Shown here in pieces: positions 4,860-33,346 of a stretch of 64,000 nt of DNA. The notes under the pieces are model-generated. The model had not been told where the DNA came from. It did no database searches and saw only the letters and a program-made list of their open reading frames with translations. The position numbers and the translations under genes were made by a program. This DNA is from Tubulanus polymorphus (lineage: Eukaryota; Nemertea; Palaeonemertea; Tubulaniformes; Tubulanidae): positions 6,011,175-6,075,174 of the forward strand of contig NC_134032.1 of NCBI RefSeq assembly GCF_964204645.1, given 5' to 3'. Each line of letters begins with the position of its first letter. The stretch's first letter is position 1.

Positions 4860-5293
4860 ATTAATTGAGTATGAAATAAAATTTAATGAAAAGTTAAATG
4901 AAAATAAAGAAATAATTATGACAGAAGAAGAGAATGAATAATTTGAGTTTGCTGATAAATGTTATTATTGTGAAAAGACATTTAATTTTAGTTAATAAAA
5001 AGTTAGAGACCATGATCATTTGAATGGAAAGTTTAGAGGTTCAGCACATGAGAATTGTAACTTACAAGCTAAGAAAATTAACTTTTTTCCAGTTATATTT
5101 CATAATTTATCAGGGTATGATGCACATTTATTCATCAAGCAACTGTGCCATAAAATAGAAGAAATCAATAATGAAATAGAAAGAGTAAATTCAAATAGAT
5201 CAAACGATAAAATACCAACATATAAATAGTTCATTAGATAATTTATCAAAATCATTAGTTGATGATGAATTAAAAATATTAAAACAACAATAT

Positions 5294-5797
5294 AGCTGCA
5301 AAGCAGCGATAACGGGTTTTCTGGATGCATGTGATCGAAAGGAAAAATTAATTACCGGGTATTCGATGGAAAAAATAAAATGAGATGATTTTGATATTAT
5401 CGGAGCAATCCTCTTTTTGGTTGAATGGTCTAACCCCAGTATAGTCCCCCGTGATTTGGAAATTCTCGGAGCCCTCCTTTATTTACTTACTAAATGACGT
5501 CACAAACTGTTATTTCGCCGGTGCTTGTTGTCGAACAATTCTATTCAATTCTTTATTTACAGTAACCTAATAAGTAATTTTAAGTTTCAAATAGGATGGA
5601 AAGTACATTCAGACAATCTGTTGGTTCAGAGAGACCGTTATTACAGTATCAATTTATACATTTCGTTTCGAAGCTGTCAGTTGCCGAATCTGAATGAAGA
5701 TGAATTTTATTTGACGAAATCGGCGGAAAATATATAATAATAATAATCAACAGAATTTCAAGAGGGTTTTCGACGAAAGTCAGAAAACCCTAATTAT
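5294..5797. mobile_element. Helentron-like insertion in polB
   Basis: About 504 bp starts with GCTGCAAAGCAGCG and an early GGGTTTTCTGG. It ends with an (ATA)n stretch at 5737-5749 and a hairpin at 5765-5790 (GGGTTTTC pairing with GAAAACCC). The same terminal arrangement is seen at 961-1021. The exact ends are ambiguous by a few A/T bases. Deleting it joins two polB segments in the same frame. No rolling-circle replicase is encoded. Confidence 0.6.
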
Positions 5798-7109
5798 CAA
5801 AATAATGATGATTTTCAATTAATGAGATATAAAGGAGCAATTCCATATTCATTATATAAAAATCATAATTATTTCAATATAACTAAATTATTAAAAGAAC
5901 AATTCTACGATGAATTAAAAAATGAATATATTGAAGATGAAGTCTATGATAGAACATTGAATATTTGGAATCATTTTAGAATGAAAAATCATGGAGAATT
6001 AGTAGATTTGTATCTAAAATCAGATGTGTTATTATTAACAGATATATATGAAAGGTTTAGAGATGTAAATCTAAAATATTTCAATATTGATCCTTGCCAT
6101 TGTTATTCTAGTCCGGGTTTAACTTGGGACTGTGGTTTAAAATTTACAGATATAAAAATGGATTTGTTAACAAATATAGATCAATGATTATTATTTGAAA
6201 AATCTATAAGAAGAGGAGATGCGGGTGTATTAGGTGATAGATATTTCAATGTAAATGATAACGCTGGATATAAATTATTATATATAGATGCAAATAATCT
6301 ATATGGTTGGGCAATGATGGAACCAAAACCTTATGGAGTATTTGAAATAAGTGAAGTTTTACAACATGAAAATAATGATAAATTTGATTGGAAGAAAAGA
6401 ATTCTAGATATTGCAGATGATTCAGATACTGGTTACTTCTTTGTTGTAGATTTAGAATATCCTGAAAATATTAAATTTAAATCTAGAAATCTAGCATACT
6501 GCCCCGAACATAAAACTGTTACGCATGAAGAATTATCAAATTATCAAAAAAGAATTAAACCTGAAAATCATATTCATACAGAAAAGTTAATGGTTACTCA
6601 GGAAGATAAATATAATTATGTAGTGCATTATAGAATGTTGAAGTTTTATCTAAATCAAGGAATGATTCTAAAAAAAGTACATAGATATATTTCATTCAGT
6701 CAATCTAAATGGTTAGAAAAATATATAGATTTTAACACCAAACAGAGAACTAAAGCTAAAACTGATTTTGAGAAAGATTTCTTCAAGTTAATGAATAATG
6801 CATTCTATGGTAAGACTTGTGAGAATATTAGAAATAGAAATGATATCGAGTTAGTTAGTAATGGTAAAAGAATTAGGCATTTACAAACATATCCTAAATT
6901 TATAGATAACAGAATATTTGATAAAAATTTAGCTGCAGTTAAAATGAGGAAAACTTCTATGAAATCTAATAAACCAATTTATGTTGGTGCTTCAGTTTTG
7001 GAAATATCAAAATTATTGATGTATGAATTTTACTATAACGTATTACAACCTCATTTTGGAGAAAAGCATATGGAAATCTTATATTTTGATACTGACAGTT
7101 ACATATTAA

Positions 7110-7743
7110 CCCTTTAAGACTTTGATACATATTTATATGTATCATATTCAAATTGCGTTAAAACTTTGATACATATAAATATGTACTTTGGCAAATGAGT
7201 AATTTTCTCTGGTAGGAACAACATTATTCAAACTCTGGAGATTCAAGGTCAATGTAAAGCATCAGGAAAACATTTTTATCAATATTTTTTTGAGTTCTAC
7301 AGGATTTTGAAGGATAATATCATATAGTAGAACTACATCTCATGTGACAATAAGTGACCCTACATTCTTCGACTCAGACACTAGTAATTTAGACAGTGAT
7401 AGTGATGATATTATGCATTTTATTGATGGAAATAGCTGTCTAGTAGTCAAAATAAACATTCTACACCTTTTCTTAGTATATAAATTTTCTAATGATAATG
7501 TCCAGACCCAGGTTTTGCTCGCTACCCATACATGCCCAATTTTGCTTTCAATAACCCTAAAAAACAAAGGGCGCCCCTGCTAGAAAAAAAGTAAACAGAA
7601 ATAAAGTAGATCTATATATTACATCTATTTGCAGATATCCTATAATTTATAGAACTTTATTCATAACAGGTGTTTTAGAGCTTTGTTTGGACTTGTTCCG
7701 TGAAAAAATATCTAAAAATGTCCATGATAAAATTATTAAAGGG
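7110..7743. mobile_element. piggyBac-like element in polB (TTAA target)
   Basis: The element is flanked by TTAA on both sides (7106-7109 and 7744-7747). It begins CCCTTTAA and ends TTAAAGGG, the canonical piggyBac target and tip. The insertion lies three codons after the DTDS catalytic motif of polB, and removing it with one TTAA restores the frame. Near the left end are paired TTTGATACATAT repeats. A short acidic frame (from about 7344) resembles the acidic N-terminus common in piggyBac transposases, but at 634 bp the copy cannot encode a full transposase. Confidence 0.8.
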
Positions 7744-8289
7744 TTAAAGATAAAAACTAATAACGTAACAGATGATTTAAAAACATAAAAACATCATTTT
7801 GATTTCAGTAACTATCCAAAAGCTGATGAATTGTTTAACAATGATAATAAAAAGGTGCCCAGGAAGTTTAAGGATGAACTAGGAGGTGAAGAAATGATAG
7901 AGTTTATTGGAATTAGATCTAAAATGTATTCATATAAAACTAAAACTCATGAAGCTAAAAAGTTAAAAGGAATTACCAAAAGTGTAGTAGAAAAAAATAT
8001 TCATTTCAAAGATTACATCAATTGTATATTTAATGAAGAAGTCAGAAAACATAAGATGAAATGTTTAAGATCTGAGTACCACGAGATGTATATTGTAGAA
8101 ATAGAGAAGATAAGTCTAAACCCATTTGATGATAAAAGATATATTTTAGATGATGGAATTCATACAGGTGCTTATGGTTGCAATTTAGATGAATACTTAA
8201 AATTTAAAAGAGAAGAAACAAAAGAGAATGAGATTATGAAAAGGTTTATTACATGTTAATTCAATTTTAATAAAAAATATGTTATTAAA

Positions 8290-8643
8290 ATGTAGAGTAA
8301 ACAAGCACACAGTGAGAACAACAAATCATTTCTAGATAGGATAAAAGATATCACAAATGCTAAATCTGTAGATTATAAATTTTAGAAGTTAACAGAATTA
8401 ACAATTCATAAGAAATATCTAATTACAAATATTGATACAGTTTCTAACAAATATGGAGATAAATTAGTTATTCACTTAGAATATGAAGGATTGAAAGGAA
8501 ATAAATATAAATTCAGAACATATTTACCAGATAGATTTCATAGATTATCAAGTGAAGATTTAGAAGAATTATGTTCAGGTGATTTCTATTTCATATACAA
8601 AGGTAAGAATGAAAAAGGGCACCATGAAATAGATTTCGAATAA
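8290..8643 (+). pseudogene. Small conserved Polinton protein, about 117 aa
   Basis: The frame directly downstream of polB opens at ATG 8290 but is followed at once by TAG, and has a second TAG near 8382. Otherwise it is continuous to TAA at 8641. The C-terminal half alternates beta-like segments (KYLITNIDTV, DKLVIHLEY, KFRTYLPDRF) and ends acidic. That pattern could be a compact beta-barrel such as an OB fold, which is inference only. The position next to polB would suit a replication accessory protein. I do not recognise a named family. Confidence 0.5.
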
Positions 8644-8657
8644 AATATGTAAAATAA

Positions 8658-9414
8658 ATGGTAGAATTAAAAGAATACAGAATATTTGTTGATTCTAGAA
8701 GACTTACAAATTATAAATCACATAATTTACTAGTACAATTAGATAGAGAATTTAAGAATTGTGTAGATTTAAATTAGTAAATGTAAGTTTATGTAATTCT
8801 TTTTATAACATATCGAATAAAACTATTGAACATGGAGCCTTTTTAATTTTTGATAAAAATAAAAATGAATGGTCCTATATAATATTTAAAACGGGGTTAT
8901 ATATTTTAGATACATTATCGCAAGAAATAAATAGAAAAGTCTGGCACAAGTTAGGTAGTAATTCCGGGTTTAGTATTAGATTTTTAAAAAGTGAGAGTTC
9001 TGATTAAATAAAGATAAGGTTGTCTAATAGTGAAAAACATAAATTTATGGTAAAAAACCTATAGCTAAACTGTTAGGAATTCCACCAGATAGATCTTTTA
9101 CACATATTGATGCTACAACAAACTTAATACCTTACACACATTTTTATATTTACTGCAATTTAATTGACCCTTTAAAAACTTTCGAAGCAACTAAAGATAT
9201 AACTAGTAATTCTAGTATATAAAATATTTTACCATTGAAGAATGTTAAAGAATTTGGAATGCAAATAAATTAAAATTTAACAGAATGTGATTTCAAACCA
9301 TGCATTCCTCAATTTAATAATTTTAGATTAGAAAATAGAAATCACAGTGGATACTTAATTGATTTAAAAAACTTTCCTGTAATTTATGAATTAGTTATAA
9401 GTTGTAAAGAGTAA
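8658..9414 (+). pseudogene. Candidate penton / minor capsid protein of the Polinton
   Basis: The reconstructed length is about 250 codons from ATG 8658 (context ATAAATG) to TAA 9412-9414. One frameshift lies near 8755, another near 9050, and in-frame stops near 9005, 9219 and 9272. The N-terminal part reads as a beta-rich domain containing KLVNVSLCNSFYNI, and the C-terminal part has THFYIYCNLID followed by more beta-like strands. Size, beta-rich character and place among the structural genes suit a single jelly-roll penton protein. This is inference from position and general sequence character, not a firm match. Confidence 0.42.
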
Positions 9415-9431
9415 TTTTTCACTATATAAAT

Positions 9432-9765
9432 ATGAATATAACTGTTGGACCGAGTATATGTTTTGGGTTTGATTTTAAACATGGTAAAGAAATGAGAATT
9501 AAACTAAATGATTACTGATATTAAACGTAAATCATTTAATAATGCATCAATGATTAATAAAGGAAATTATAATATAGAAAAGGTAATTGATTTAATTAGA
9601 ACACCATTAGAATATTATGAATTAAATGAAGATGGAATTATCGATGATATTAAAAACATATTAACTGAAATATATGATAATCATAAAAGTAGTAATGAAA
9701 TAAATGTTGAAATAATCATAAATAAGATAACTAAATATTTTGAAGATGGTAATTTTTTTGATTAA
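9432..9765 (+). pseudogene. Small unknown Polinton gene, frameshifted
   Basis: A short frame from ATG 9432 (after TATAAAT, with a T-run seven bases upstream) runs 28 codons to TGA. An overlapping frame from ATG 9508 to TAA 9763 encodes 85 residues, largely helical and charged. They are either one gene with a +1/-1 slip or two tiny genes. No family is recognised. The downstream gene begins four bases after the stop. Confidence 0.4.
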
Positions 9766-9771
9766 TAAATG
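9752..9771 (+). promoter_or_regulatory. Late-promoter-like site: T-run, 6 bp, TAAATG
   Basis: A seven-T run (9753-9759) is followed by six bases (GATTAA) and TAAATG at 9766-9771, whose ATG starts the next gene. The stop of the upstream gene lies inside the six-base spacer. Confidence 0.5.
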
Positions 9772-9989
9772 AGTGATAATAAGTGGATAATAAATGGATT
9801 ATATAATCGTGCCTTCCTATCATTTGGAGCTGTTGGTTATTCAATGGTATTAAAAAAGTATTTAAAATGGGAAGTGTTAATGTTGATAGATTTGATATCA
9901 ATGATATTTTGAAATTAACATTAGCAGTAACTTTATCTAATTTAACAATTGATTATTTGGAAAAACAAAAATATATTCCTCCTATATAA
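9769..9989 (+). pseudogene. Small hydrophobic Polinton protein, about 73 aa
   Basis: The frame starts ATGAGTGATAATAAG and ends TAA 9987-9989, with one frameshift near 9855. The product would have two hydrophobic segments (about residues 10-28 and 48-62) and end KYIPPI. Its stop codon forms the TAA of the next TAAATG. A small membrane protein of this size fits the virion-gene block. Function unknown. Confidence 0.45.
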
Positions 9990-9998
9990 ATGCGTAAA

Positions 9999-10014
9999 TT
10001 TTGTTAAATAAATG
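9999..10014 (+). promoter_or_regulatory. Late-promoter-like site before the 10012 gene
   Basis: A four-T run (9999-10002), a six-base spacer GTTAAA and TAAATG at 10009-10014. A second TAAATG lies just upstream at 9987-9992 and opens only a five-codon frame. Confidence 0.45.
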
Positions 10015-10435
10015 GCATCTGCAATTATAACTATTATAGGATCGGCAATTGTTAACGCTTTGGCATTTACTGGTGGTGGATATTTATTTAAACATATTGA
10101 TTAAAATGGATCATTATCAGAACAAAAAAGACATAATTTAGCATTAGAGAAATATAATATAGCTGCAGAAGAATACTGAGAAAAAAGATAAAACTATATG
10201 GATTACATTAACAAAGAATTACATAACCAGAAAATTACACATAGAGATTTTCAATCAGTTGATGAAGCTATGAGTTTATATAATGCAGTAACAAATAAAG
10301 AAAAATTTTATCTATACAAACCTAAATTATCAGATTATTATACACCAAGTAAAGAACAACAACAATATGAAATAATTTGGATTTATAGGTGGAACTGTTA
10401 TTGTATTATTTGTTTCATATAAATTTACTAATTAG
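10012..10435 (+). pseudogene. Polinton membrane protein, about 140 aa, broken
   Basis: From ATG 10012, an N-terminal hydrophobic segment (SAIITIIGSAIVNALAF) is followed by a glycine-rich turn and a charged helical region. A PKLSDYYTPS stretch follows, and then a C-terminal hydrophobic segment reached after a frameshift near 10378. In-frame stops occur near 10102, 10177 and 10189. The layout is a membrane anchor at both ends with a helical middle. I recognise the arrangement as recurring in animal Polintons, but no function is established. It lies between two other small membrane proteins. Confidence 0.5.
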
Positions 10436-10438
10436 TAA

Positions 10439-10457
10439 TTTCTTTTCTAAATAAATG
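10439..10457 (+). promoter_or_regulatory. Late-promoter-like site before the 10455 gene
   Basis: A pyrimidine tract TTTCTTTTC (10439-10447), whose last T-run ends five bases before TAAATG at 10452-10457. Confidence 0.42.
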
Positions 10458-10889
10458 GATGATAAAGTTGATAATATTGATATTATTCCTCATGATATAA
10501 ATAAAACTAAATTAAAATTATATTTAGAAAAACAAATATTAGAATTTGAAAATGACTTAAAGATAAAAAAGAAAAAATATTTAAAATCTAAAATTATATA
10601 TAATTTTATTATTAGTGGATCGGTTACAATTAGTTCTGTAATAACATTTCTAGCATTATTCTCACCATTAACACCTTTAGTTATCTCAATTGGAGCTTTA
10701 GGTTTAAGTTCAAGTGTATTAACCGGCATAAGTTCAAAATTAAATATAAAAAGCTATAAAGAAAAAATAAAATCTAATATAAAAGAAATTAATAAATTTA
10801 AAAAAAAATTAGATTATATAATAAGTTAAAATGGTAATATAACAGTTGAAGAACAAGATAAATTATTTAAAGAATTAATAAATTATTAA
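10455..10889 (+). CDS. Two-TM coiled-coil Polinton membrane protein
   Basis: The frame from ATG 10455 is open for 124 codons to TAA 10827. The same frame then continues to a second TAA at 10887, so the ancestral protein was probably about 144 aa. The order is an acidic N-terminus with SDS-like IIPHDI, a lysine-rich coiled coil (about residues 20-50), two transmembrane helices (about 52-75 and 77-92), and a second lysine-rich helix. The arrangement resembles SLATT-type two-TM proteins, but that is only a topology comparison. It is one of the least damaged genes in the element. Confidence 0.6.
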
Positions 10890-10908
10890 TTTTTTTATTA
10901 TATAAATG
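10890..10908 (+). promoter_or_regulatory. Late-promoter-like site before the 10906 gene
   Basis: A seven-T run (10890-10896), a six-base spacer ATTATA and TAAATG at 10903-10908. This is the clearest example in the window. Confidence 0.55.
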
Positions 10909-12292
10909 GGGTTTCCAAAAGCTTTCCAATATAATAAATGAATTAAATATAATATTCCAGCAATAGATTTCAATAAAGATATTTCATATGGAAATGAAGT
11001 TTTAAATTCATTAATTAATTTAGATATTTATGTTACTGAAAGTAATCATTTTAATGTAAAGATGGAAAATATATTCAATGTTTATGAAATTAATTTTGAA
11101 AAAGAATTAAGTAAAGCAAAATTATGGATGTTAAAATCAAATATGCAATTCTGGCAAAACCAATTAAATTTTGCAGTTTATTGTGCAACAGCAGGGTGTG
11201 GTATGAGTTGGAATAATCATTTAAATGAACCAAATTTACCATTGATATTATCGCTCTTTAGATTTCATACATACTTAAATAAGATTAATATTAAATGAAT
11301 TAGAGTGTCCTTTACCAGGATCTAGATATTTTAAAGAATTAGATAATAGTATTAATTTATCAAAGTATTATAAGATATGTAATGAATTTAATATAGATAT
11401 AAATGATTCTGATTTTAGATCAAAGATGGGAACAATTACAGTGGGAGATTTATCTAAAGTAGAGAAAGCTATGGATGCAATGAATAATTCATCATTTCCA
11501 ATCGGAGGTTTTGCTGTCCCTTATACTAAATAATATAGAAAAACAATAAAAAATATTAACCAAAAAACGTTTAAATGGAATGAAATACCAAAATATTATA
11601 TCTATATCAAACAACAACAAAATAATGATGGTTGGATTAATTTCATTTTAGAAAATAGTGAAGGTTTTACAAAACCAGGTATACAAAGAATAAATCAATC
11701 TATTAGAACTTATTTGATTTGTATATTAGGATCACAGGTTGAAACAAGATCCCCAATAATTGGAAATTTAAATACTTCATTTGACGCGCAGAAACAATTT
11801 AAAGTTTTATTTGAAGATTCCATTCATAATGATAAAAATAGATCGATTCCAGAAAATATAGTCAGGTACCAAAATTATTTAGATGAATCACATGTAAGAT
11901 TGAATTATTGTATAGGGCCCAATTTATTAATTATTTCTAATGATTTAATATTACAAATGGGAAATATAATTGGTTATAATAATCTAATTAAAACTGCAAC
12001 AATACATAATAAGTTTCGATTAGATGACATAAATAAAACGATTATTACTGCTCCAAAATTAATGGAAGGTGAAAAAAAATTAAAGAAATATTCAATCCAC
12101 TGAAACTAAAACTAAGAATATTAAATTAAATAATGATTCTAAAATAAAAGATTACATACATCAGAAAATATAAAAACTGATATTATTCAGCATGATATAA
12201 TTAAAACTAATAATGATAATAAATCACATGAAAATACTAAATTAGCTATAACTTGTATAGGAATTGTAATTGTAGGAATATTATGTTTTTAA
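10906..12292 (+). pseudogene. Large conserved Polinton protein with C-terminal TM, about 460 aa
   Basis: ATG 10906 opens MGFPKAFQYNK, then a TGA. The frame resumes with a conserved-looking block containing LWMLKSNMQFW and YCATAGCGMSWNNHL, followed by a frameshift near 11280, ECPLPGSRYFKEL, and one TAA near 11531. It then continues into FAVPY, TKPGIQRINQ and NYCIGPNLLIISNDLI. After another frameshift near 12090 a low-complexity Asn/Lys linker leads to a C-terminal transmembrane segment (AITCIGIVIVGILC). Cys and Trp in the central block look structural. I recognise this as a protein that recurs in animal Polintons, but its role is unknown. Its size and tail anchor suggest a virion or membrane component. 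Confidence 0.6.
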
Positions 12293-12299
12293 ATTTTAA

Positions 12300-12317
12300 T
12301 TTTTTATCATATAAATG
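12300..12317 (+). promoter_or_regulatory. Late-promoter-like site before the 12315 gene
   Basis: A six-T run (12300-12305), a six-base spacer ATCATA and TAAATG at 12312-12317. Confidence 0.55.
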
Positions 12318-14019
12318 GATGAAGAAATTCCATTGGATGACATGGATCCTTTAGATGAACCTGGTATAAGTGATGAACCACAACCTGATTATAATGAAAC
12401 TAATATTGATAATGAAGTTGGATCAGCATATAATACTAATTTAGGTGAAGATGATTCTAGTGGGCCTATATTATATGATTTTGATGAATTTAAAGATGAT
12501 ACTATAACAGATAAAAAATCAAAAAATTATTTAGAATCCCACTATGAGATGATAATTAAAACTTGACCAGAAAGAAAAGATTTAATAAATAGATTAGAAA
12601 GAACAGAAAACCCTGAATTGAAAAAAGAATTATTATACATAAAACATAGTGTAACAAATACAGTTATTGAAGAATTATTACCAAAAAATATAACAGATAA
12701 CATTGAACCAGAAGATATTTCAGAACAAATTAGAGAAGATGATCCACATTTCATGAATAATTTAGAATTTAAAAATGATTCATGGAATTATAATGTTGAA
12801 TTAAATAACAAAACTGTATCAATTCAATTATCTAAAATGGGACAAGAAGATCTGTACCATCCTGAAATGCGTGCAGGATCTTCAATTGAACGTTGAAAAG
12901 GTGGTTCAGAATTTCTCAGAATTATATGGAATGCACTCGATAGAATACATGAAGGAAAACCAAATCCGAATATTGATATTAACAAATATTCACCATTTAA
13001 AAATCCAAATTTAAATCCTACTTATGTTGATCCAGAAATGGAAGAGTATGGAGATCGATTAGATAAATTATGAACTTCAACACCAGAAACATCGAGAAGA
13101 GATATTCAACAAATTGATAATGATTCAAGACAATTACAATTAGTATTAGAAAAACAAATTGATAGATTAAGAGATTCAGAAGAAGAGATGAATAGTACTT
13201 TAGATACATCTCGTACTGGAACAAATCAAATACAACATTTATTAGAAAAAGGATTACTTCATTTAAATGAAGAACAATTAAAAATATTTCCAGAACAAGC
13301 ACGTAGAGAAATTAAAGGTATGCAAGAATCAGCTGGTGAAATTGCTAATATTAAGATGAGATTTTCTAAAATAACCATGTTAGAAAAAGAATTAACTGAT
13401 GCAAATGAAGAATCAAAACAATTAGAATTAGATAAAGATCTTCAAGTAATTGATGAAGTTGAATATGAATGCAGAACGTTAGCTTTAGAAAAAGAAATTG
13501 ATGATTTAAAATATAACAAAGAATTACAGGAAAAAGAAAGAGATGTATTATTGAAATCATATGATCTTAATCATATTAAAAAATTTAAAGTTATTTTTAA
13601 AGATTTAATAATAAAACCGGATTCTAAAATATCATTAAAAGATAGAATAAGATTATTATTTAAATTAGAAGGTATAACAATTCTTTCAATTCTAACAGCG
13701 GTAACTATGATATTTACAACAATTGGTTTAGCTATTTCAAATTCATTAAAATCTACACCAAATGATAATACTACCAAATGATAATAATTCTATACAAGAT
13801 AAAGTGAAAGATGGTTTAAAAAAATTAGCAAAATATCTATGGGAACTATCTAAAAAATCTGCTGCATCATTACTTGGAATTATTGCATCAATTGTTGGTT
13901 TTATATTGAAATCTGCTGGAAATATTCTTAACTTTGCTGCTGAACATATTATTTTATTTTTAATTACTGTTGCAAGTGCAATTATTTTTGGGTTAGTGAA
14001 TATGATCAAAAATAAATAA
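12315..14019 (+). pseudogene. Coiled-coil membrane protein of the Polinton, about 565 aa
   Basis: From ATG 12315, the order is an acidic N-terminus (DDMDPLDEPG) and a helical region, then the well-kept block ending SPFKNPNLNPTYVDPEMEEY. A long coiled coil follows (about 13100-13560), then KFKVIFKDLIIKP and a transmembrane helix (about 13675-13745). After a frameshift near 13780 two more hydrophobic helices follow (about 13850-14000). The first 1.46 kb is a single frame broken only by three TGA codons (12564, 12894, 13070). The multi-TM tail suggests a membrane-active virion component. This is inference; the family recurs in animal Polintons without a known function. The tail repeats ACCAAATGATAATA at the frameshift. 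Confidence 0.6.
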
Positions 14020-14025
14020 TTAATA

Positions 14026-14042
14026 TTTTTGTTAAATAAATG
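14026..14042 (+). promoter_or_regulatory. Late-promoter-like site before the capsid gene
   Basis: A five-T run (14026-14030), a six-base spacer GTTAAA and TAAATG at 14037-14042. Confidence 0.52.
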
Positions 14043-15230
14043 AGTGGGAGTTACATGAATCCTTCTAAGAATTCTAGAATATCTAATGCTATTAAAGCAG
14101 AGAGATCGCATCATATTATTACTCATAATCATTCTAATATTAATCCCGATGAAACTTTATATGTTAGAATCCCTCGATTAAAACAACATACTTTTTATGT
14201 TCCAAATAGTATTTATTTATCAGCTGATATAAAAGTAACTGGCCATGATAATAATTATGTTGTAGATAATGTTGGGAGATATCTAATTAAAAAATTAACC
14301 ATAAAGATTGGACCAGAAATAGTTTTTTCATTAGATGATTATAATTTATTTATGCATTAAGATTTATGGTTAACAAAAGAAAATAGAAAAAAATATGATA
14401 TTTCGAGGCATCCAATCAGAAAACATAATAAATTAAGATCAGAAGCTAATAATGCAATAATAACTAATGCTACAGATAATTTGATTAAAAAGATTTATGG
14501 AAGCAAATATAAAATTCCATAAGACTTTGAATTGATAAATAATAATGCACCTTTGTATAAATATGCAATTCATGAAGATATTATATTCGAAATAACATTT
14601 GCTCCCGTTAATGAAATTGTGCTATCTAGCGTTGTTAAAGATATGGGTTATAAATTATCGAATATATGTTTAGAATATGATACAGTAACTGATGAAAATA
14701 TTGCTAGCATAATTCAAACTCAATACAATCAAGGATTTTCTTTATTATGTGATTTTATTGATAAATTTAAAACTGTAACTATTAATGCAAGTGATGAAAT
14801 AATTAACTTCCCAAGAAGATCTATTAAAGGTATATTAATATTTTTTTACCATTGCAACATATTCTTTTCGTGCAATAAATGTTGATAATTATTACAATCC
14901 GGAAATAACAAAAGTAGAAATAACTATCGAATGTATAGAAAATAAAATATTTTGCCAAGGAATGAGAATGATTGATCAGTGGCCAGAAATTAGAAAACAT
15001 TTTATGAATGAAAAAATAAATATAATAAATATGCATTATGGTTAGATTTTAGAACAACTGAGGATAATTTATTACATGGTTCTGGGGAAAAACTACAGAA
15101 CACTAAAGATGGAATACAACTATTCATGACAAAGGAAAAAGGAAGCTTAAATTTCAAAATGCACATTTATATTATATATGACGCGCAATTAAATATTGTT
15201 GATTCTCAATTTAATAGTGTTATGTATTAG
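14040..15230 (+). pseudogene. Candidate major capsid protein of the Polinton
   Basis: The frame from ATG 14040 reads about 395 codons with TAA at 14358 and 14520 and frameshifts near 14845 and 15040, ending at TAG 15228. It is beta-strand rich. Landmarks are the N-terminal block ETLYVRIPRLKQHTFYVP, a DLWLTKENR helix after the first stop, NFPRRSIKGI before the first frameshift, and the C-terminal block IYIIYDAQLNIVDSQF. Position among the late genes, length and strand pattern suit a double jelly-roll capsid protein. The call rests on general resemblance and not on a structural comparison. Confidence 0.6.
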
Positions 15231-15262
15231 AATTTCAGTTTTAATAAAAAATTCTATAATAA

Positions 15263-16422
15263 ATGGATGAAGGTAAGTTATATGAAAGAATAAATGCTGA
15301 TAAAGAAATCAATGATGATTTGTATTATGTAATACCTTATAAAAGAATAAATGAATATATTGGAACATTTTTATTAAATGAATTAAATCAATACAAAGAA
15401 TATCTAATTGAACGTAATAATGATATAAAAAAAAGATAATATAGGTAATGATAATATAGATATTATACCTTCTACATCTAATAATAAGAATATTGAAACT
15501 AAAAAAAGATGATAATATTGAAACAAAAATAGAAAATAATGTTGAACCTAAAATAGAAGATAATATTGAATCTAAAATAGAAGATAATATTGAAACAAAA
15601 AAAGAAGGTAATGTTATACCTTCTAAATTGAATGATGATAAGATTGAACCTGATATTAAAACCAAAAAGACAAATGAAAAATATTGTGACGTATGTAAGA
15701 AATATATATCACATAAAAATTGGGCAACTCATAAGAAATCAAAGAAACATGTAGAAAAAGAAAAGAATAATAATATCATAGATAAAGTTAATACAATTGA
15801 AACTAATGATACCATAGATAATATAACAGATAATGTTGATACAATTGAAAATAATGATAATGAAACAATTGATGATTCTAAAAAACATTATAATGTTTGT
15901 AATTTAGATATTTCTAAAAGTAATTTTTCTAAGCATAAAAAATCTCAGGGACATATAGAAAATGAAAGGGAGTTAGAAGAACATGAAAAGAAATTGGAAA
16001 GAAATAAAACGTGTCAATATTTTAATAAGAGAATTGAACCTGTTGATGAAAATACTCATTATAAATCAAAATTACATCTAATTAATGTTTATAAAAATGA
16101 AAGTATGATACCATTGTTAAATAACCCAATGAAATGTATCAAATATTTTGATCCTAAAACTAAACAATATTATATATTCTATAAGTTGTTATTTGAAAAA
16201 TTATTAGCTTATGCAGAAGATAATCCTAAACAAATATATAAATTATCATATTCGAGAAAAATAGATTTAAGTTATCTAACAAAAAATTTTGGATATCATT
16301 TTGATTTCTATTTTGATGAATACTTTGAAAAATTAAGAAAAGAAGGTAAGATACATACTAATTATTATTATTTGATGGCTCAACTGAAATTAATAAATCT
16401 ACCTAAGCATTATTATGGATAA
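15263..16422 (+). pseudogene. Asn/Asp-rich protein with C2H2-type zinc fingers
   Basis: ATG 15263 (context ATAATAAATG) opens a frame that shifts near 15430. The main part from about 15493 encodes a repetitive acidic linker with recurrent KIEDNIE units. It then has a finger CDVCKKYISHKNWATHKK...H (about residues 65-85), a second linker, and a degraded second finger in which the first Cys is replaced by Tyr-Asn (HYNVCNLDISKSNFSKHKK). A helical C-terminal domain of about 150 residues follows. A third CQYF...H remnant follows the second finger. It ends the + strand block and could be a nucleic-acid-binding virion or regulatory protein; that is inference. Confidence 0.55.
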
Positions 16423-16504
16423 GATATAAACCAAGATGACTTTATAAACTTACTAGAAACAAAATTAGAATAAAAATTGTTAATAATAACTATTTATATA
16501 TCTA

Positions 16505-16573
16505 TGTAGTAGACGTACGTAAGAATCCAAGAATCCAAGAAAGTAAGAAAGTACTCATACGTCTAGTACATAC
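16505..16573. repeat. Palindrome 1 in the convergent spacer
   Basis: The arms GTAGTAGACGTACG and CATACGTCTAGTAC face each other around a core of tandem AAGAATCC and AAGTAAGAAAG pieces. It is related to the longer palindrome at 16879-16975. Confidence 0.6.
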
Positions 16574-16878
16574 ATATATAAATTAGTTTTCTTAAAAATT
16601 AAAAATATAAATTATTAATTGAAGTATAGAAATAGTTATAACATAATCTATTTTTATTTTATTGAGTGAAAACATATAATTTATTCATTTTTATATACTT
16701 CATTTAATAATTGATATTTGTAATTATCATAAATATAAATTATATATATAAATAATTTATATAATTTATATATTTGTACCCCTGTGTAAACATAAATTAT
16801 AAACATAGTTTTAATATATAATTTATTCATTATTATATATTTCATTTAATAATTTTTAAAAAACTAATTTATATATCT

Positions 16879-16975
16879 ATATACTAGACGTATGAGTAAG
16901 AATCCAAGAATTCTTACTTTCTTACTTTCTTAGCAAGAATCTTGGTTTCTTACTCATACGTCTAGTACTTAGATA
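16879..16975. repeat. Palindrome 2 in the convergent spacer
   Basis: The arms begin TACTAGACGTATGAGTAAGA and are mirrored at the right end (TCTTACTCATACGTCTAGTA). The stem is about 30 bp with few mismatches, and the loop contains TTCTTACTTTCTTACTTTCT. It could act as a bidirectional transcript-end hairpin or be a small fold-back insertion. Confidence 0.65.
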
Positions 16976-16984
16976 TTTAAATAG

Positions 16985-17596
16985 TTATTTTATAAATTTA
17001 TATTCATAAGGAAATTGAAGCCTCAGTAATAATTTTGAGCCTTTATTACTTTTTAATGTATTCATATATTCATCATGTAATTCAGTAGGTATAATTTGAT
17101 TTTCTTCCAGAGATTGTTGCATAGATTTTCCATCTTTATTGTAGAATAAAACTAAAAATCTAATGTTTTCTCTAAAGGGTTTAACAATTGAATTATATTT
17201 TTGATTTAAAACCCATGTTGTTATCCCAAAATGTCTACCAGAGAAAGCTAAATAACATAACTCACTTTCTCTAACTTTTGAATCATGTAAATTAGCACAA
17301 TCATCTATAATGAATAATGTATTTGATACTTTATAAATATCTAATGCTATTTTAATACAATTATCTAAATTTTCTTTTACTGTTTTAGGATCTAATATAA
17401 TAAACTTTTTTATCTTAACTATATCTCTATTATATGTTTTATTCATTTCATACGTGGGGCAGAATAATATTATATTATCAAAATGATTCTAATAAATAGT
17501 TTCTAACAAATCTAGTATGAAATGTGTTTTACCACAATTTGTTACTCCAGTAACTAACATATTATGTGGTTCAAATATAAATAAATCTTTATTCAT
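16985..17596 (-). pseudogene. FtsK/HerA-type genome-packaging ATPase of the Polinton
   Basis: This P-loop ATPase is expected to pump DNA into the capsid. ATG at 17596-17594 (context AATAAATG) gives an N-terminal Walker A motif GVTNCGKTH near residue 18 and an in-frame TAG about 15 codons later. Then come FCPTYE, Walker B LFIIDDC, a SGRH motif and WVLNQKY, with the C-terminus at 16985. At about 203 codons it is slightly short for A32-like ATPases (usually 220-260). All nucleotide-binding motifs are visible, and a single stop inactivates it. The integrase stop codon directly abuts its ATG. Confidence 0.88.
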
Positions 17597-18627
17597 TTAT
17601 TCTTTTAATTTTACTAAATTAAATTTATCATCATACCCTTTATATTTCACTAAAGAATACTTTTTTCCTTTAAGAGTTTTTGTTTTTATTACCTTTTTTG
17701 TATCCTAATTCATCTGGATTTGGTACAAGTGATAATTCTTGTTCATAAAAATAACCTAATATTTCTTCATCTTTTAAATTTTCTAATTTATAAACAAATG
17801 GTTTAGTTAATATTATCTTTTTGATCTTGAATATTTCTTCGGTAAAATTTGGAGGTATAACCTTTATAAAATGTTTTTCGATATTTAGATATTCTAACAT
17901 GTTGTCCAATTTTAAATTTAGGTTCACCGAAATCATGTGTAACAAATGCGTTATATAAATTATTCCAAACTATTTCTGAATTATCTTCTTTTCTTGCTTG
18001 TATAAGTTTCATACCAATACTTGAATGTTTAGAATTATTATAACCTTTAACTAAATCATCTAATACATCGATATATTTATATGTTTCATTTGCTGTAAAA
18101 TATTTCCACATTCTAGTTTTCAATGTTTTATTAAATCTTTCTATAATGGATGCTTTTTTTATCTGAGTGCATTGAAGAATACTCTACATCGTTTTCAGAT
18201 AATAGTTTTTTAAAATGTTTATTATAGAATTCCTTACCTTCATAAAATTGTATCTTACCTGGAATAGCTTCTTTAAATATTGATTTAAAGGTATTAGTAA
18301 CTTCTATACCAGTTTTATTTTTTGATTGGTATACTCCATGCTTATCTACTGAATATATCTATAACATATATATCTATTCATGTTTATTAAATCTGCTTGC
18401 CATTGTTGATCAATATATGAAACCATAACTTTTCTTGTTAAATAATTCTTATCCATTTTCTTATGGATTTGATATGTCGGTTGATTTTGCAACCACAATT
18501 TTGATTCACTATATTTTATATTTTCTTTATCAGATTTAATTTTATCCCATAATTCTGAAATACTAGAATATGATACTTCACTCTCTGGGTTATAATATAA
18601 ATCTCTTAAATATTGTTCTTTGTTCAT
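17597..18627 (-). pseudogene. Polinton retroviral-type integrase with chromodomain-like tail
   Basis: This DDE integrase (rve fold) inserts the element. From ATG 18627 there is an N-terminal helical region, KKMDKNYLTRKVMVSYIDQQWQADL with the first Asp, then a deletion/frameshift that removes the stretch before IDIFSR. The segment GKIQFYEGKEFYNKHFKKLL follows, in which the second catalytic Asp position reads Tyr. A third frameshift precedes the ERFNKTLK block carrying the Glu. The C-terminal region ends in a chromo-like KYKGYDDKFN piece. An upstream in-frame ATG at about 18713, broken by TAA near 18637, may be the true start. Multiple frameshifts plus D-to-Y make it inactive. Confidence 0.85.
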
Positions 18628-18706
18628 CTTCTTTTAATCCATTAATAATAATCTTGGTTTATTTTCAATGGTTTTATCATTTGACTTATTTTCTGGTATA
18701 ATAGGT

Positions 18707-18997
18707 TTAATCATCGGAATCATTATTATTAGATTTGGATTTATATTTATTTATTACGCCAGAAAATATAATAACTGTTACTAATCCAATTGTAATATAT
18801 AATTTACTATTACTTCCAGCATTAGAAGAATCAGATGGATTATCATTCGAATTAATAACAGATAATTTCTGTGGTTCATTTACATCAGTTAATTTCTTTT
18901 TCTTAGCTCTTTTTAACTCTGAAGATCTTTTACCGAATTCCCTTGCCCATTTAATTTGTTTTTCAGATCTAGGCTTCTTCTTAACATCATCACTCAT
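18707..18997 (-). CDS. Small tail-anchored Polinton protein, 96 aa, intact
   Basis: The frame is uninterrupted from ATG 18997 (context AATAAATG) to TAA 18707. The N-terminal half is very basic (KKKPRSEKQIKWAREFGKRS, RAKKKK), followed by an Asn/Ser linker and one transmembrane helix (about residues 68-84, LYITIGLVTVIIFSGVI), ending NNNDSDD. The basic-then-TM design suits a small DNA- or membrane-binding virion protein. The start overlaps the end of the upstream gene. Function unknown. Confidence 0.6.
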   Translation of the reverse strand: MSDDVKKKPRSEKQIKWAREFGKRSSELKRAKKKKLTDVNEPQKLSVINSNDNPSDSSNAGSNSKLYITIGLVTVIIFSGVINKYKSKSNNNDSDD

Positions 18998-19558
18998 TTA
19001 TTTTAGTTAATTTTTGTTCTGATTCAATATCTTCTGATTTATTTTTATCTTTGTATTCTATAGGTTTGATACTAGAAAATGTTATAACTCCAGTGGAAAT
19101 CAATGTCATTATTCCTCCTAATTGGAATGAAGCGTATCCAACCTATTTTTGAAGTTCTGTCATAACTAAATAATCATTTTTTAAATCACTATATAATTTA
19201 TTTTCATCATCAATTGGTATAATCCGGTTACATAACTTAGAGTAATATTTAACTATTCCATCACTAATAGAGTCATTTATTCTAGCTAATCTAGCTTCTT
19301 CATATATTTTGAAATGTTTGATTACTTTATCTGGTTTCATGGCATCTAGTTCTTGAAAAGTTAAAATTTTTCCGATAAACATTTACCACTAGCAATTAAT
19401 AATTCTAGATGGTGCTTACATGTTAAATAGTATTCAAAATCAATATTATTATCAACTTGAGCACAATTAGAAACAACTGTATCTTTATTATCTGTAATAT
19501 CTAAATCCTCAATTGTCTTTTCAATATCGGTATTATTCTTATTAGATTTCTTTGACAT
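18990..19558 (-). pseudogene. Conserved small Polinton protein, about 185 aa, broken
   Basis: ATG at 19558 is preceded by TATA and a seven-A run on the + strand (a T-run in sense). The frame covers an Asn/Asp-rich N-terminus and CKHHLELLIASGK, shifts near 19375, and resumes with TFQELDAMKPDKVIKHFKIYEEAR and DLKNDYLVMTELQK. A TAG follows at 19143, then a hydrophobic helix (GIMTLISTGVITFSS) and a charged tail overlapping the next gene by about three codons. The helical core plus C-terminal TM is a pattern I have seen in animal Polintons, but no function is known. Confidence 0.52.
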
Positions 19559-19572
19559 TTATATTAAAAAAA
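19556..19572 (-). promoter_or_regulatory. Late-promoter-like site on the - strand
   Basis: Read on the - strand, a seven-T run (19572-19566) is followed by four bases and TAAATG (19561-19556). It is the - strand counterpart of the + strand sites, with a shorter spacer. Confidence 0.4.
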
Positions 19573-19599
19573 GCGCAAAGAAATATTATAAGTATTCTT

Positions 19600-19960
19600 C
19601 AGATGATACTAATAACTCTTTGGGTTAATACTAGTGTCTCTTTGGGTTAATACTAGCTATTTGAAGTCATTGTTTTTTAGTATTTTTTATTTGTGATATA
19701 AAGTATTCTCTTTTTGAAAAGAAATGCAAAAGAAAATATAAAAAATATAATAGAATTCACTATCTATTTGAAGATATGTAATTTTTATTTAAATCTTATC
19801 AAAATCTATTCAATCTTGTGCCAATTAGAATTGCCAAAAGAAAATATTAAAAATATAATAGAATTCACTGGCTAGTTGAAGTAATTGTTTTTTTAAATAC
19901 TTCTTATTTAAATTAGGATTCAATATCTCATTACAATTGTCTATCTATTAGGAGCAATTT
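19600..19960. repeat. ~108-bp direct repeats beyond the last Polinton gene
   Basis: The unit CAAAAGAAAATATWAAAAATATA followed by GAATTCACT occurs at 19727 and 19835. A shorter related copy (AATACTAGCTATTTGAAGTCATTG) begins near 19647, and GGGTTAATACTAG is duplicated at 19622 and 19641. Subterminal tandem repeats are common in Polintons, so this may lie near the right end, although - strand genes of similar character continue beyond it. Confidence 0.55.
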
Positions 19961-20098
19961 AATTGTCCAGATATTTCGGATCCTCGATAAAAAATCCTCA
20001 ACTGAAAATCAATTCAACGAAAACACCGGGTGGAAATACTATTTCATAAACACATATATTTATTATGCAAATTTTAGCGATCGAAGATAGAACAATGA

Positions 20099-20124
20099 AA
20101 AGCGGTCCTAGAAGACCGCTTTTG
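20099..20124. repeat. Perfect 10-bp hairpin AAAAGCGGTC..GACCGCTTTT
   Basis: The stem AAAAGCGGTC pairs perfectly with GACCGCTTTT across a 6-base loop. It is followed by GCTTCTGCGCATGCGCC, which holds the palindrome GCGCATGCGC (an NRF1-type site in animals). It may be a promoter or a small mobile-element tip; no gene start is tied to it. Confidence 0.4.
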
Positions 20125-20327
20125 CTTCTGCGCATGCGCCAATTATATAATTTATTCCGTAAACTACAACATTCAAACATAGAACAGTAACCAATCAATA
20201 CAGAACAGCCGTCGCCATCAACAACGACCGAACGACTAATGCATAACAATACAATATTAAAGCAGATATACACAATCAAGAATACACTTTTTGATATCTA
20301 TATTACAAAGATCTTCAGCGTTATAAT

Positions 20328-21074
20328 TTATAATTTCGTCCAGAAATCTTTAATTACTAAATCGTTTTCAATCATTTCTTCAATTTCTGGTAAATAGTTG
20401 ACAACTTCACTAAATGTTAAACTTAATGATTGGAATTTTTCATATTCTATCAATCTTCCCTCTCTTCTCAGTTTTCTTTCCTAACCGGTGCTGATTTCTA
20501 TGTTCTTTTTTACCCAAGCCCCCCAAGAAATCCCCTCAGTTTTTTTGTCGAACATGTTAAACCCTATAATCAAATAACTCCCGAAAATGATGTGATCCCA
20601 TAAGTGATTTGCTTTTCTTTTTAATATTGTCTTATAACTTATTTTTAATATATTAGTAATTTTTTCAAATGAAATAACTTCACCAATTTGTATTTCTGGA
20701 AAGTTTAAATGTTCTGTTTCAATAATTAATTTTGATTTTAAAAACTTATTCAACTCTTCTCCACTCATTTTCAATTTCTCGAGTCCCGACAGCAATTCAG
20801 ATTCCTTGAGTCCCAACAACAATTTCAGGTTTGTTGTTGGTAATTTTGGTAATTGTGGTTCGCGTGGTAATTGTTTATTATGAATTATGTCACCCAACAT
20901 TTTCGTCATTTCTTTATGATAATCCAAATGTTTTTATAATTTGTTTAAAGTTTGATTGTCAATAACTTGAGTTCCTTCCTCCATTTCTGTTGAATCCTGT
21001 GAATAACTATCCATCGGCATTGGTTCCTCTTCCGATGGTTGCCTTGGAATTTCTGGTCGATCTCTGTATTCCAT
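20328..21074 (-). pseudogene. Unknown protein, about 248 aa, two in-frame stops
   Basis: One frame runs from ATG 21074 to TAA 20328, interrupted only by TAA near 20935 and TAG at 20481. There are no frameshifts. The N-terminus is acidic and Pro-rich (RPEIPRQPSEEEPMPMDS). The middle has leucine-rich helices (LKLLLGLKESELLSGLEKL), a block EVISFEKITNILKISYKTIL, and the well-formed KRKANHLWDHIIFGSYLIIGF. The C-terminal part is helical and acidic and ends IKDFWTKL. It is read in the same direction as the integrase genes and may be Polinton cargo or an unrelated element gene. I do not recognise the family. Its base composition is less A/T-rich than the genes to its left. Confidence 0.5.
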
Positions 21075-21482
21075 TTTAATCTAAAAGATGTCGTGAAAAT
21101 GAATACCTTTACTTAAATATGTTTAAAGGTTTCCCTACTTCATAATAACTACAAAAAACGGTACTTACATTTCGATTTAGAACTGTTAACTGTGTTTTGA
21201 GAGAGAATATCCAATACGTCCTGCATGCGCGATCGAGGATGATGTAATGTATGTCTCAATACGTCAAGGCACTGTCTGGCACCATGGAAACGCTTGATAG
21301 CTGCTCTTTTATAGGCTTAATGAGATTAATTAATTCTTTACAATTTAAATGTAACAGAAGTTTACTAAAACACCCGATAATACTCAACCAGCAATATAGT
21401 TGAGTATTATAAGCGCTTATAAAGATTCAGTATGTGGGCAATTCTGCGAACTACTATTCCATAATTCAACAAATGTCTTTGT
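21075..21482. other. Spacer with CpG-containing GCATGCGC site
   Basis: No reading frame is present. TGCATGCGCGATCGAGG near 21221 and the hairpin/GCGCATGCGC near 20130 flank the 20328-21074 gene on both sides. They could be promoter elements, but nothing fixes a transcription start. Confidence 0.3.
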
Positions 21483-22085
21483 TTAATCTAATTGCTCCAA
21501 ATATAACTGAAAATCTAGTTTGTTCGTTTTAATTTTATTTTCCTTCTTTTCAAGAGGCCTTAAATTTCTCCAATTCCATACCAATTTCTTATTGCGTTCA
21601 TCATTCATGTTAAATTTAGAAATCGGCAACACATGATCAATATGAAAGTATTCGTCATAATTATTTATATTCATTTCACCTTTAAACTGATTTATAATCC
21701 ATGATTTTAAGAATTCATCTGTACAACCCAACAAATTAGATAGTGTGTATGAGTGTTTGTCTTTACTGAATAATTGTGATAATCTAATTCTTAAACATTG
21801 TTTCAATTTAAAATTAAAATCTGTATGCTATTTTTCTTTATAATAATTTCTATTATACACTTTAATATGTTCTAAATGATTTTCTTTCCACTGCTTATGT
21901 TTATCTTTGCGTGTTTCAGTATTATTTCTATAATTTTGTTTGTCACTTAGTTTACTACAAGTTTTAAAATAACTTTGCTTACCATCTTTCTGAGTTTTAT
22001 GATTATAATAATCTGTAAATGCCTTATTCAATTCACATTTTGAACATTTCTTGTAGTATATATTTAGAGAATATATTTTTCACTT
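21483..22085 (-). pseudogene. HNH endonuclease with N-terminal zinc-ribbon, one stop
   Basis: The reading frame on the - strand begins with KKCSKCELNKAFTDYYNHKTQKDG, half of a zinc ribbon (the second CxxC pair is degraded to FKTCSKL). A Lys/Tyr/Asn-rich repetitive linker and a TAG at 21828 follow. The C-terminal HNH nuclease carries YFHIDHVLPISKF and NWRNLRPLEKKENKIK, with the His/Asp and Asn positions of the metal-binding core visible. No ATG is seen upstream, so the start is lost. This ribbon-linker-HNH layout is typical of homing-type nucleases in phages and giant viruses and is unusual in an animal chromosome. It may be Polinton cargo. Confidence 0.72.
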
Positions 22086-23253
22086 TTATGAACTCGACCT
22101 CTCGACCAGAGGGCTATTAAGAACGGACACCTTGCACCCAGGGTCGGTACCGTAGCGGTCTTATACTCCATGGTTTGTGCTAGGAAAGTCAGTGGGAGTC
22201 TTTAAATTTGAAAAGTTGACAGACAATATCCTTGAATGCCTTAAATTTTCACAGTTGAACCGAAATTATCGCCGAGTTGTATGGCAGTTTGGCGTGCTTT
22301 TGTTCATTCACTGCAGACGTATTGCGTAGCAACAGTCGGCGCCTGTGGATTCCTCATTAACGGAGTTAATGCATCGCAACAATCAGAGCTGCGCGCACCT
22401 GCTACGGAGTCCCGTCGATAGACTGTTTAGTAACACATTTTCCTTTCCAAACATGTATAATTCTAAATCCATATTGTATGAAAATAGAAATATTAATTTG
22501 AAAATATTTTGCATTCTAAAATTTTTGGTGCAATAGTTATTTGCATGAAAAAACACCGAACAGGTGAACTAGGATATAATCGTCATTCTTAATCACGATG
22601 CGGCTTATCCGTAGCGATCCCGTCTTTGCATGGGCATCGTGTGGGAGAATGAGCAATGTGACTGCATGTCGTCATGACGCTCTAATTTCCGCCTCCGGCT
22701 GTGGCAGTGGCAGCGGCAGCGGCGGTCTGTATACGGGTCAATTCAGAAAAAGTGGCAAGATCTATGTGATTGAATTTGCTCCGTGACCAGGCCTACACTA
22801 AATTTGAAAATCTATATTAATGGAAACCTCAATGTTGTAGATAATTTGATAATGTATTATAACCAGTTAAATAATATTTGGAGAGGCATATTTAGGGAAA
22901 ACAATTATCCGAAACCACTAACCCTCTTAAAAATATTCATGTAATGGGCTGAGTTACATAGGTTTATGGGCTGATAATTTTACATAGAAGATCAATTTTG
23001 GTATTATTCCATGAAGTTGGTTTTATAATGATTAATACTTTTTAACTTTAATATTTTAAGATTAATATTTTATGATACCTAAATCACTTTTTGAGAAATA
23101 TTTACATTTATCATTGTAATGCGTTTATTTGTTAATTCTGCAACAGTCCCCTTTTTGTCCACTACCAGCAAGTGGTGACATCTGTCCGATTAGTGAGGTC
23201 TCCAACCAAAATTGATTGCAACAATGAGATCGGTTACGTGATTCCCATTCACC
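22086..23253. other. Unassigned sequence
   Basis: No convincing gene is present. A short Gly/Ser-rich open frame (22598-22786) is explained by GGCAGC-type low complexity. GTTAATTCTGCAACAG at about 23138 is the first of several copies of the motif found through 26.1 kb. Confidence 0.4.
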
Positions 23254-28106: not shown

Positions 28107-28121
28107 TTTATATGAATTTGA

Positions 28122-33293: not shown

Positions 33294-33346
33294 GTTTGGT
33301 TCACGGAATGTAGTAACTATATTTCGTTCTCTTTTAGGATACTACC

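Follow-up and report, generated by a model that had tools for sequence, protein, structure and literature searches.

Conserved poxvirus-like start signal at the virion genes of Polintons in a nemertean genome: a candidate late promoter

Polintons integrated in the genome of the nemertean Tubulanus polymorphus carry, at the starts of most of their virion genes, a signal that resembles the late promoters of poxviruses. The element studied here is a decayed Polinton of ~21–25% G+C within a 64-kb window (the whole stretch of DNA analysed, 64,000 nt of contig NC_134032.1), integrated in an animal genome whose assembly comprises 268 Mb in 77 contigs. The nuclear-receptor zinc finger, a family that marks animals, has 56 matches in this assembly; a search for odorant receptors gave three, which did not decide where the host belongs. 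The signal is most sharply described as a fixed register, TAATTTTT-N7-ATAAAT, in which the T-run starts right after a TAA at a constant distance and varies at its 3′ end. From these sequence comparisons we favor, with some reserve, the reading of this signal as a compact core promoter of the late class that includes its own initiator, probably served by a VLTF3-like factor that the elements themselves encode.

A preliminary description of the window had listed twelve gene starts as having the form TAAATG and had likened the T-runs upstream of several of them to poxvirus late promoters. Its five exact 6-nt gaps are all present (TAAATG at 9766, 10009, 10903, 12312, and 14037, with T-runs of 7, 4, 7, 6, and 5 ending 6 nt upstream), as are the gaps of 7 and 5 nt given for 9427 and 10452. 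The word at 9427 is TAAATATG, with the ATG at 9432, and 9990 had to be rejected as a gene start: its TAA is the stop that closes the gene begun at 9769, and the frame behind it has just five codons. We defined the motif as four or more Ts ending 5–8 nt before TAAAT, with TAAAT at or just before the ATG, and scored it at 13 window starts, namely the twelve listed earlier plus 9427 (ATG 9432) and 8290, less 9990. It occurs at 7 of these 13 starts vs. 1 of 594 other ATGs (Fisher 2.3e-12), and equal frequency at random ATGs, which the preliminary description had named as refuting its proposal, was not seen. Starts lacking the motif are 8290, 8658, 15263, 17596, and 18997, which have no T-run (TAAATG is present at the last four), and 19558, where a T-run stands at a gap of 4 nt. 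A comparison with shuffled sequence, also proposed at that stage, bears out the spacing: in dinucleotide shuffles of window positions 8250–16450, four or more Ts exactly 6 nt before TAAATG occur 0.10 times on average vs. 5 times observed, and 0 of 500 shuffles reach five. The same arrangement is missing from the opposite strand of this interval and from either strand of 36001–64000.

The signal recurs in related elements of the same genome, where an upstream comparison found it in 51 of 54 gene-by-copy cases (g1–g7 and the capsid gene; ten loci were examined and eight gave matches). The gap is 6 nt in 30 of the 51 cases, 7 nt in 12, 5 nt in 5, and 8 nt in 4, such that 47 lie at 5–7 nt. All three exceptions concern g1 (in the window, L062, and L066), and the upstream DNA there differs from that of the other copies. 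Copy L061 shows this register at eight starts of the virion cluster, g1 being aligned on its TAAAT: TAATTTTT occupies −19 to −12, seven free positions follow, and ATAAAT begins at −4. The motif is present at 8 of 11 starts vs. 1 of 367 other ATGs in this copy, and at 7 of 9 vs. 1 of 408 in L062. The window copy is a worn example of the signal, since only two exact sites and two further sites near a start with one mismatch fit the 21-nt pattern TAATTTTT-N7-ATAAAT. Genome-wide, this pattern followed by G occurs 4231 times (2247 + 1984) vs. 14 times (7 + 7) for a reversed-pattern control; with one base less there are 422 occurrences and with one more 698, and among those listed many appear to differ in the length of the T-run. 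Chance in AT-rich DNA might be suspected from the low G+C content of the element and from plain TAAATG being just twofold enriched in 8250–16450 (24 vs. 12.0 expected from shuffles), but an exact-gap count that no shuffle reaches and the genome-wide excess over the control refute it, and we regard it as practically out of the question.

Conservation before the capsid gene follows the signal closely. Among 30 copies, the fraction of minor bases amounts to 0.010 for the T-run, 0.017 for the spacer, and 0.000 for the TAA, and the 16 bases before the ATG are nearly invariant; comparison values are 0.065 for third positions in the 49 codons that follow and 0.374 for −60 to −31, the latter inflated by indels as the columns are ungapped. 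The start codon itself is supported by the alignment of capsid proteins, in which 33 of 33 rows begin within 4 columns of it. At g1, five copies read T6–7, N6, and TAAATAATG, so the register tracks TAAAT and not the ATG, which lies 3 nt further on. The signal is also found at divergent starts, those of g1 and of the VLTF3-like gene of sub-family A1. Because it is tied to TAAAT rather than to ATG and is present before divergent genes, it probably acts as a promoter with an initiator.

These same observations bear on explanations that involve no viral promoter. A translation-start context or stop–start coupling without any role in transcription could draw on the TAA directly before the ATG, which is also a stop codon in some genes. 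However, the register is kept at g1 despite the displaced ATG, most preceding genes end before the T-run, and a T-run 12–16 nt upstream is not known to take part in start choice; we reject translation context as the sole explanation, and find it scarcely credible in any form. Alternatively, the AATAAA-like words and the T-runs, which recall the poxvirus T5NT signal, could mark the 3′ end or termination of the preceding gene and not a promoter. Several intergenic gaps are indeed just 15–20 nt long and contain AATAAA or TATAAA, but at the divergent starts no same-strand gene lies directly upstream, at g3 the T-run sits within the end of the preceding frame, and the signal is locked to TAAAT beside the start codon. 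A 3′-end signal alone is rejected for these reasons, and a reading of this kind appears very improbable. Use of the motif by host RNA polymerase II (Pol II) as an unusual initiator or TATA-binding protein (TBP) site, without a viral factor, is somewhat easier to entertain and still distinctly improbable. TATA-like AT-rich words do occur at each start, and vaccinia late elements are reportedly TBP targets, which counts in its favor. A TATA box touching the ATG would place the usual Pol II start inside the gene, yet capsid N-termini are conserved from this Met, and we therefore reject a usual TATA box; moreover, the pattern is rare outside the family, judging from the reversed control.

A candidate factor for the signal is encoded by sister elements of the window copy. 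Searching the genome with PF04947 (VLTF3) gave at least 81 places (150 of 228 candidates were scored), 72 of them over the Pfam curated cut-off, including four that pass only ‘with its neighbours’; the best match has 30 bits (E 5.8e-5), and none of 14 control genomes yielded a match. Open frames of 410 aa or more contain 46 of the 81 places. Copy L072 has the gene on its − strand, flanked by the PolB-like frame and g1, and pieces of this copy score 28.0 and 29.2 bits against PF04947 in hmmscan (cut-off 25). The predicted protein of family A, the Polinton family considered so far, combines C2H2-like fingers, a U1-type finger, a CPxC..CxxC ribbon, and the VLTF3 domain; a zinc ribbon preceding the domain is a trait of VLTF3 in nucleocytoplasmic large DNA viruses (NCLDVs). 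The gene itself starts with T5-N6-TAAATG in five of six copies. AlphaFold models of the VLTF3-like proteins have a mean pLDDT (predicted local distance difference test) of 60 in family A and 74 in a second family, B, and late-factor or VLTF3 entries rank 1, 3, 4, and 5 among the structural matches of A (TM 0.08–0.21) and 2, 3, 4, and 7 among those of B (TM 0.24–0.53). At rank 1 for the B protein stands a protein without a name (BFVD M4QPM5, E 6.9e-03) from Tetraselmis viridis virus S1, a Polinton-like virus. As this is the best structural match of the modeled B protein, a Polinton-like virus may carry the VLTF3 domain too.

In the scheme we propose, TAATTTTT-N7-ATAAAT, usually overlapping the ATG, would be the late core promoter preceding the virion cluster (g2–g7 and the capsid gene) and, in A1, also g1 and the VLTF3-like gene. 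Late in the cycle, the VLTF3-like factor of A1 elements would direct RNA polymerase to this sequence. Transcription would start in the AAA of TAAAT and, by analogy with vaccinia, give a leader of near-zero length or a short oligo(A), in which case the T at −3 would not be part of the mRNA. The A1 protein could serve, in trans, copies that are worn or lack the factor, the window copy among them, and integrase, ATPase, and the 117-aa gene beside PolB, which have no T-run, would be expressed in another way. The polymerase could be that of the host or of a helper virus; the Pfam-scanned frames, which came from incompletely read copies and were not searched for any polymerase family in particular, included no polymerase-subunit gene.

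The preliminary description had gone further and suggested a co-infecting virus or a cytoplasmic phase. Its poxvirus comparison stands, as the likeness is real, common to the virion-gene cluster, and kept across copies; the helper or cytoplasmic phase is a conjecture, and an own late factor is at least as likely because sister elements encode a VLTF3-like protein. In the helper version, a poxvirus or another NCLDV infects the same cell, and the element imitates its late promoter and relies on it for transcription, as proposed for mavirus and the giant virus CroV. Virophages share a late promoter motif with their giant virus, and the types of endogenous mavirus-like elements (EMALEs) bear distinct motifs (PMC8547959, PMC10945749). 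Although such precedents, the fit of the motif to poxvirus late promoters, and the lack of a VLTF3 match in the window copy all speak for a helper, the factor gene of the sister elements argues against it, and no helper is known for these Polintons. Neither VLTF2 (PF03295) nor RAP94 (PF03294) was found in the host genome, both being weak tests whose outcome, for RAP94, does not show absence. Overall, we consider dependence on a helper unlikely.

Several observations weigh against a late promoter served by an element-encoded factor. The PF04947 match is confined to the second half of the model, with best positions 83–164 of 168 in family A and 76–142 in family B. An intact 422-aa reading (L075) that is over the cut-off in the genome search is not reported by hmmscan, and a homolog search with this protein found none at E 0.001. 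Likewise, neither the A nor the B protein has a match at E 0.001 in a viral structure library, where TM-scores are low, and the Protein Data Bank offers no VLTF-named chain by sequence and none by structure among the 50 matches listed. As the window contains none of the 81 VLTF3 places, the sub-family found there must get its factor elsewhere or use another, e.g., its own zinc-finger gene at 15263. The T core comprises 4–8 Ts after TAA and is shorter than the ~20 bp of poxviruses, and positions −32 to −17 before the capsid gene are also fairly conserved. Because the copies are close kin, they do not provide independent counts; what is independent amounts to about nine gene starts. Readable DNA of relatives from other species was not found, and the motif comparison is one among copies in a single genome. 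No confirmed relative came from IMG/VR, for which the queries were a single capsid protein and alignments of capsid (two), ATPase, and VLTF3-like proteins, or from prokaryote genome contigs searched with the capsid alignment. The motif itself is present in at least 120 IMG/VR stretches, and the 80 listed have one match each, which looks like chance.

A further point on this side comes from family B, which pairs a VLTF3-like gene with starts that are not of the TAAAT type. This family (L063/L064, one copy read) has an ATPase 46–47% identical to that of family A, and its loci have a GC content of 41–49% and contain an Endonuclease_7-like frame in addition to the VLTF3-like gene. The 172-aa VLTF3-like protein (P0121) scores 21.1 bits against PF04947, below the cut-off, and has no zinc ribbon of the CPxC..CxxC type; of its three metagenome relatives, P0122 and P0123 are over the cut-off (26.5 and 29.5 bits) and P0124 is below it (22.1 bits). 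TAAAT occurs at none of ten family B starts, and [A/T]ATAG lies within 14 nt of 7 of the 10 vs. 4 of 108 other + strand ATGs, a motif defined post hoc in that it was first noticed by eye in the same single copy used for the count. Because family B combines a VLTF3-like gene with the complete lack of TAAAT starts, the factor does not dictate the TAAAT motif. Start-proximal motifs thus differ between Polinton lineages of a single genome, which parallels the situation in endogenous mavirus-like elements (PMC8547959). The family B copy adjoins fragments of family A genes and a DUF1759 retroelement-like frame.

The hallmark genes of Polintons, i.e., an rve integrase, an A32-like ATPase, and a double jelly-roll capsid gene, are present, with PolB being weak (window features in Table 1). 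Pfam matches in L061 include rve (1.7e-10) and Pox_A32 (2.7e-13); the Capsid_N match to the capsid protein is weak (0.0065). The major capsid protein has 928 protein homologs (120 listed) from metagenomes and animal genomes, among them relatives of 36–76% identity. The family is very large, as the capsid N-terminus yields 1176 candidate places in the genome, and all 150 that were scored match. Motif sites on contig C1 (32 Mb), among the first 100 places listed, begin at 12.55 Mb, and the family seems to be absent from the first third of this contig. Two gene orders were distinguished among L061, L062, and the window: in sub-family A1 integrase and ATPase come after the capsid gene and share its strand, with a VLTF3-like gene located upstream of g1, whereas in the window type integrase and ATPase are on the strand opposite to the capsid gene and a 117-aa gene precedes g1. 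Integrase and ATPase starts in copies such as L035 read TATATAAATG without a T-run. In such copies the integrase ends at the TAA that precedes the ATPase ATG (17596), the integrase frame of L039 runs past it, and neither L035 nor L039 has a T-run there.

Table 1 Start signals and selected genes of the Polinton in the window.
Feature	Position	Strand	Details
g2 start signal	9415..9434	+	T5 9415-9419, 7 nt, TAAAT 9427-9431, ATG 9432
g3 start signal	9750..9771	+	TAA 9750-9752, T7 9753-9759, 6 nt, TAAATG 9766-9771
g4 start signal	9999..10014	+	T4 9999-10002, 6 nt, TAAATG 10009-10014
g5 start signal	10443..10457	+	T4 10443-10446, 5 nt, TAAATG 10452-10457
g6 start signal	10887..10908	+	TAA 10887-10889, T7 10890-10896, 6 nt, TAAATG 10903-10908
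g7 start signal	12300..12317	+	T6 12300-12305, 6 nt, TAAATG 12312-12317
Major capsid gene start signal	14026..14042	+	T5 14026-14030, 6 nt, TAAATG 14037-14042
Major capsid gene, 5′ part (first open frame, 106 aa)	14040..14360	+	Homologs in metagenomes and animal genomes
A32-like packaging ATPase gene	16985..17598	-	Pox_A32 1.2e-05 on frame 16985-17446; start 17596 without T-run
PolB-like gene, in pieces	5822..8259	+	DNA_pol_B_2 16.7 bits on 5822-6184, below cut-off

Terminal inverted repeats were not found at the window copy (no framing pair with arms of at least 40 nt), which counts little in a decayed copy. Overlapping inverted repeats with arms of 64 and 59 nt are located at 16552–16998, between convergent gene blocks. 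In A1, the PolB-like frame contains an intein-like insert (L072:23–1285, +) with matches to Intein_splicing (8.1e-06) and LAGLIDADG_3 (2.6e-04), both below cut-offs. The Polinton of the window is adjoined by gag-, pol-, and env-like frames of an apparent retroelement (27366–35003), which we take to be of the Gypsy type, and a frame at 21483–21674 (−) may encode an HNH-endonuclease-like protein. Scans with PHROGs and NCBIfam added nothing on the question of the start signal, and an Rfam scan of 5000–23000 gave no match.

Poxvirus late promoters consist of a core with T residues, a spacer of 5–7 bp, and TAAAT followed by G or A (PMC5294985). The Polinton signal shares with those of vaccinia the T core, the ~6 bp spacer, the TAAAT initiator followed by G/A, the overlap with the start codon, and the association with virion genes (PMC5294985), but its T core is shorter, is preceded by a fixed TAA, and belongs to an integrated element. 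Mavirus/CroV and the EMALEs likewise show lineage-specific motifs in front of the genes of small integrated Polinton relatives (PMC8547959, PMC10945749); theirs, however, is a TCTA motif shared with the giant virus helper. Cytoplasmic virus-like elements of yeast have a TAAAN initiator, in their case with 5′ poly(A) leaders, and have been likened to poxviruses (PMC6211774). In contrast to the Polintons described here, they encode an RNA polymerase and a capping enzyme and use an ATNTGA upstream element (PMC6211774). Mriyaviruses resemble the A1 elements in combining VLTF3, A32-like ATPase, and capsid genes in a small genome and differ in possessing VLTF2 (PMC11253617). The adintovirus-like elements of Amoebidium are compact Polinton-related elements with PolB and capsid genes for which VLTF3 has been reported (PMC11244446); their host is an ichthyosporean, a protist relative of animals, and the available sections mention no promoter motif.

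A literature search, with most subscription papers outside its reach, retrieved no promoter motif for animal Polintons and nothing on what turns on their virion genes. The accessible text of PMC6211774 states that reports of NCLDV-like transcription genes in Polintons were lacking, and homologs of VLTF2 and VLTF3 are described as not detectable outside Nucleocytoviricota in that of PMC11253617. The occurrence of VLTF3 in a relative of Polintons is not entirely without precedent, because PMC11244446 mentions it in the ichthyosporean elements. What is new here is that some Polintons with a poxvirus-like start signal encode a VLTF3-matching protein and may run their own poxvirus-style late program. 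More broadly, and as a tentative suggestion that we hold at slightly less than even weight, animal Polintons could carry their own VLTF3-type late switch matched to lineage-specific promoters (TAAAT in family A, [A/T]ATAG in family B). Such elements would count as viruses whose late program is self-contained, with VLTF3 late control extending beyond Nucleocytoviricota and perhaps predating the split of that group from Polintons. The motif also offers a fast way to locate and annotate elements of this kind. With a candidate promoter and a candidate specificity factor in sister elements, late expression of Polintons becomes testable, which bears on whether the late transcription of giant viruses arose in Polinton-like ancestors.

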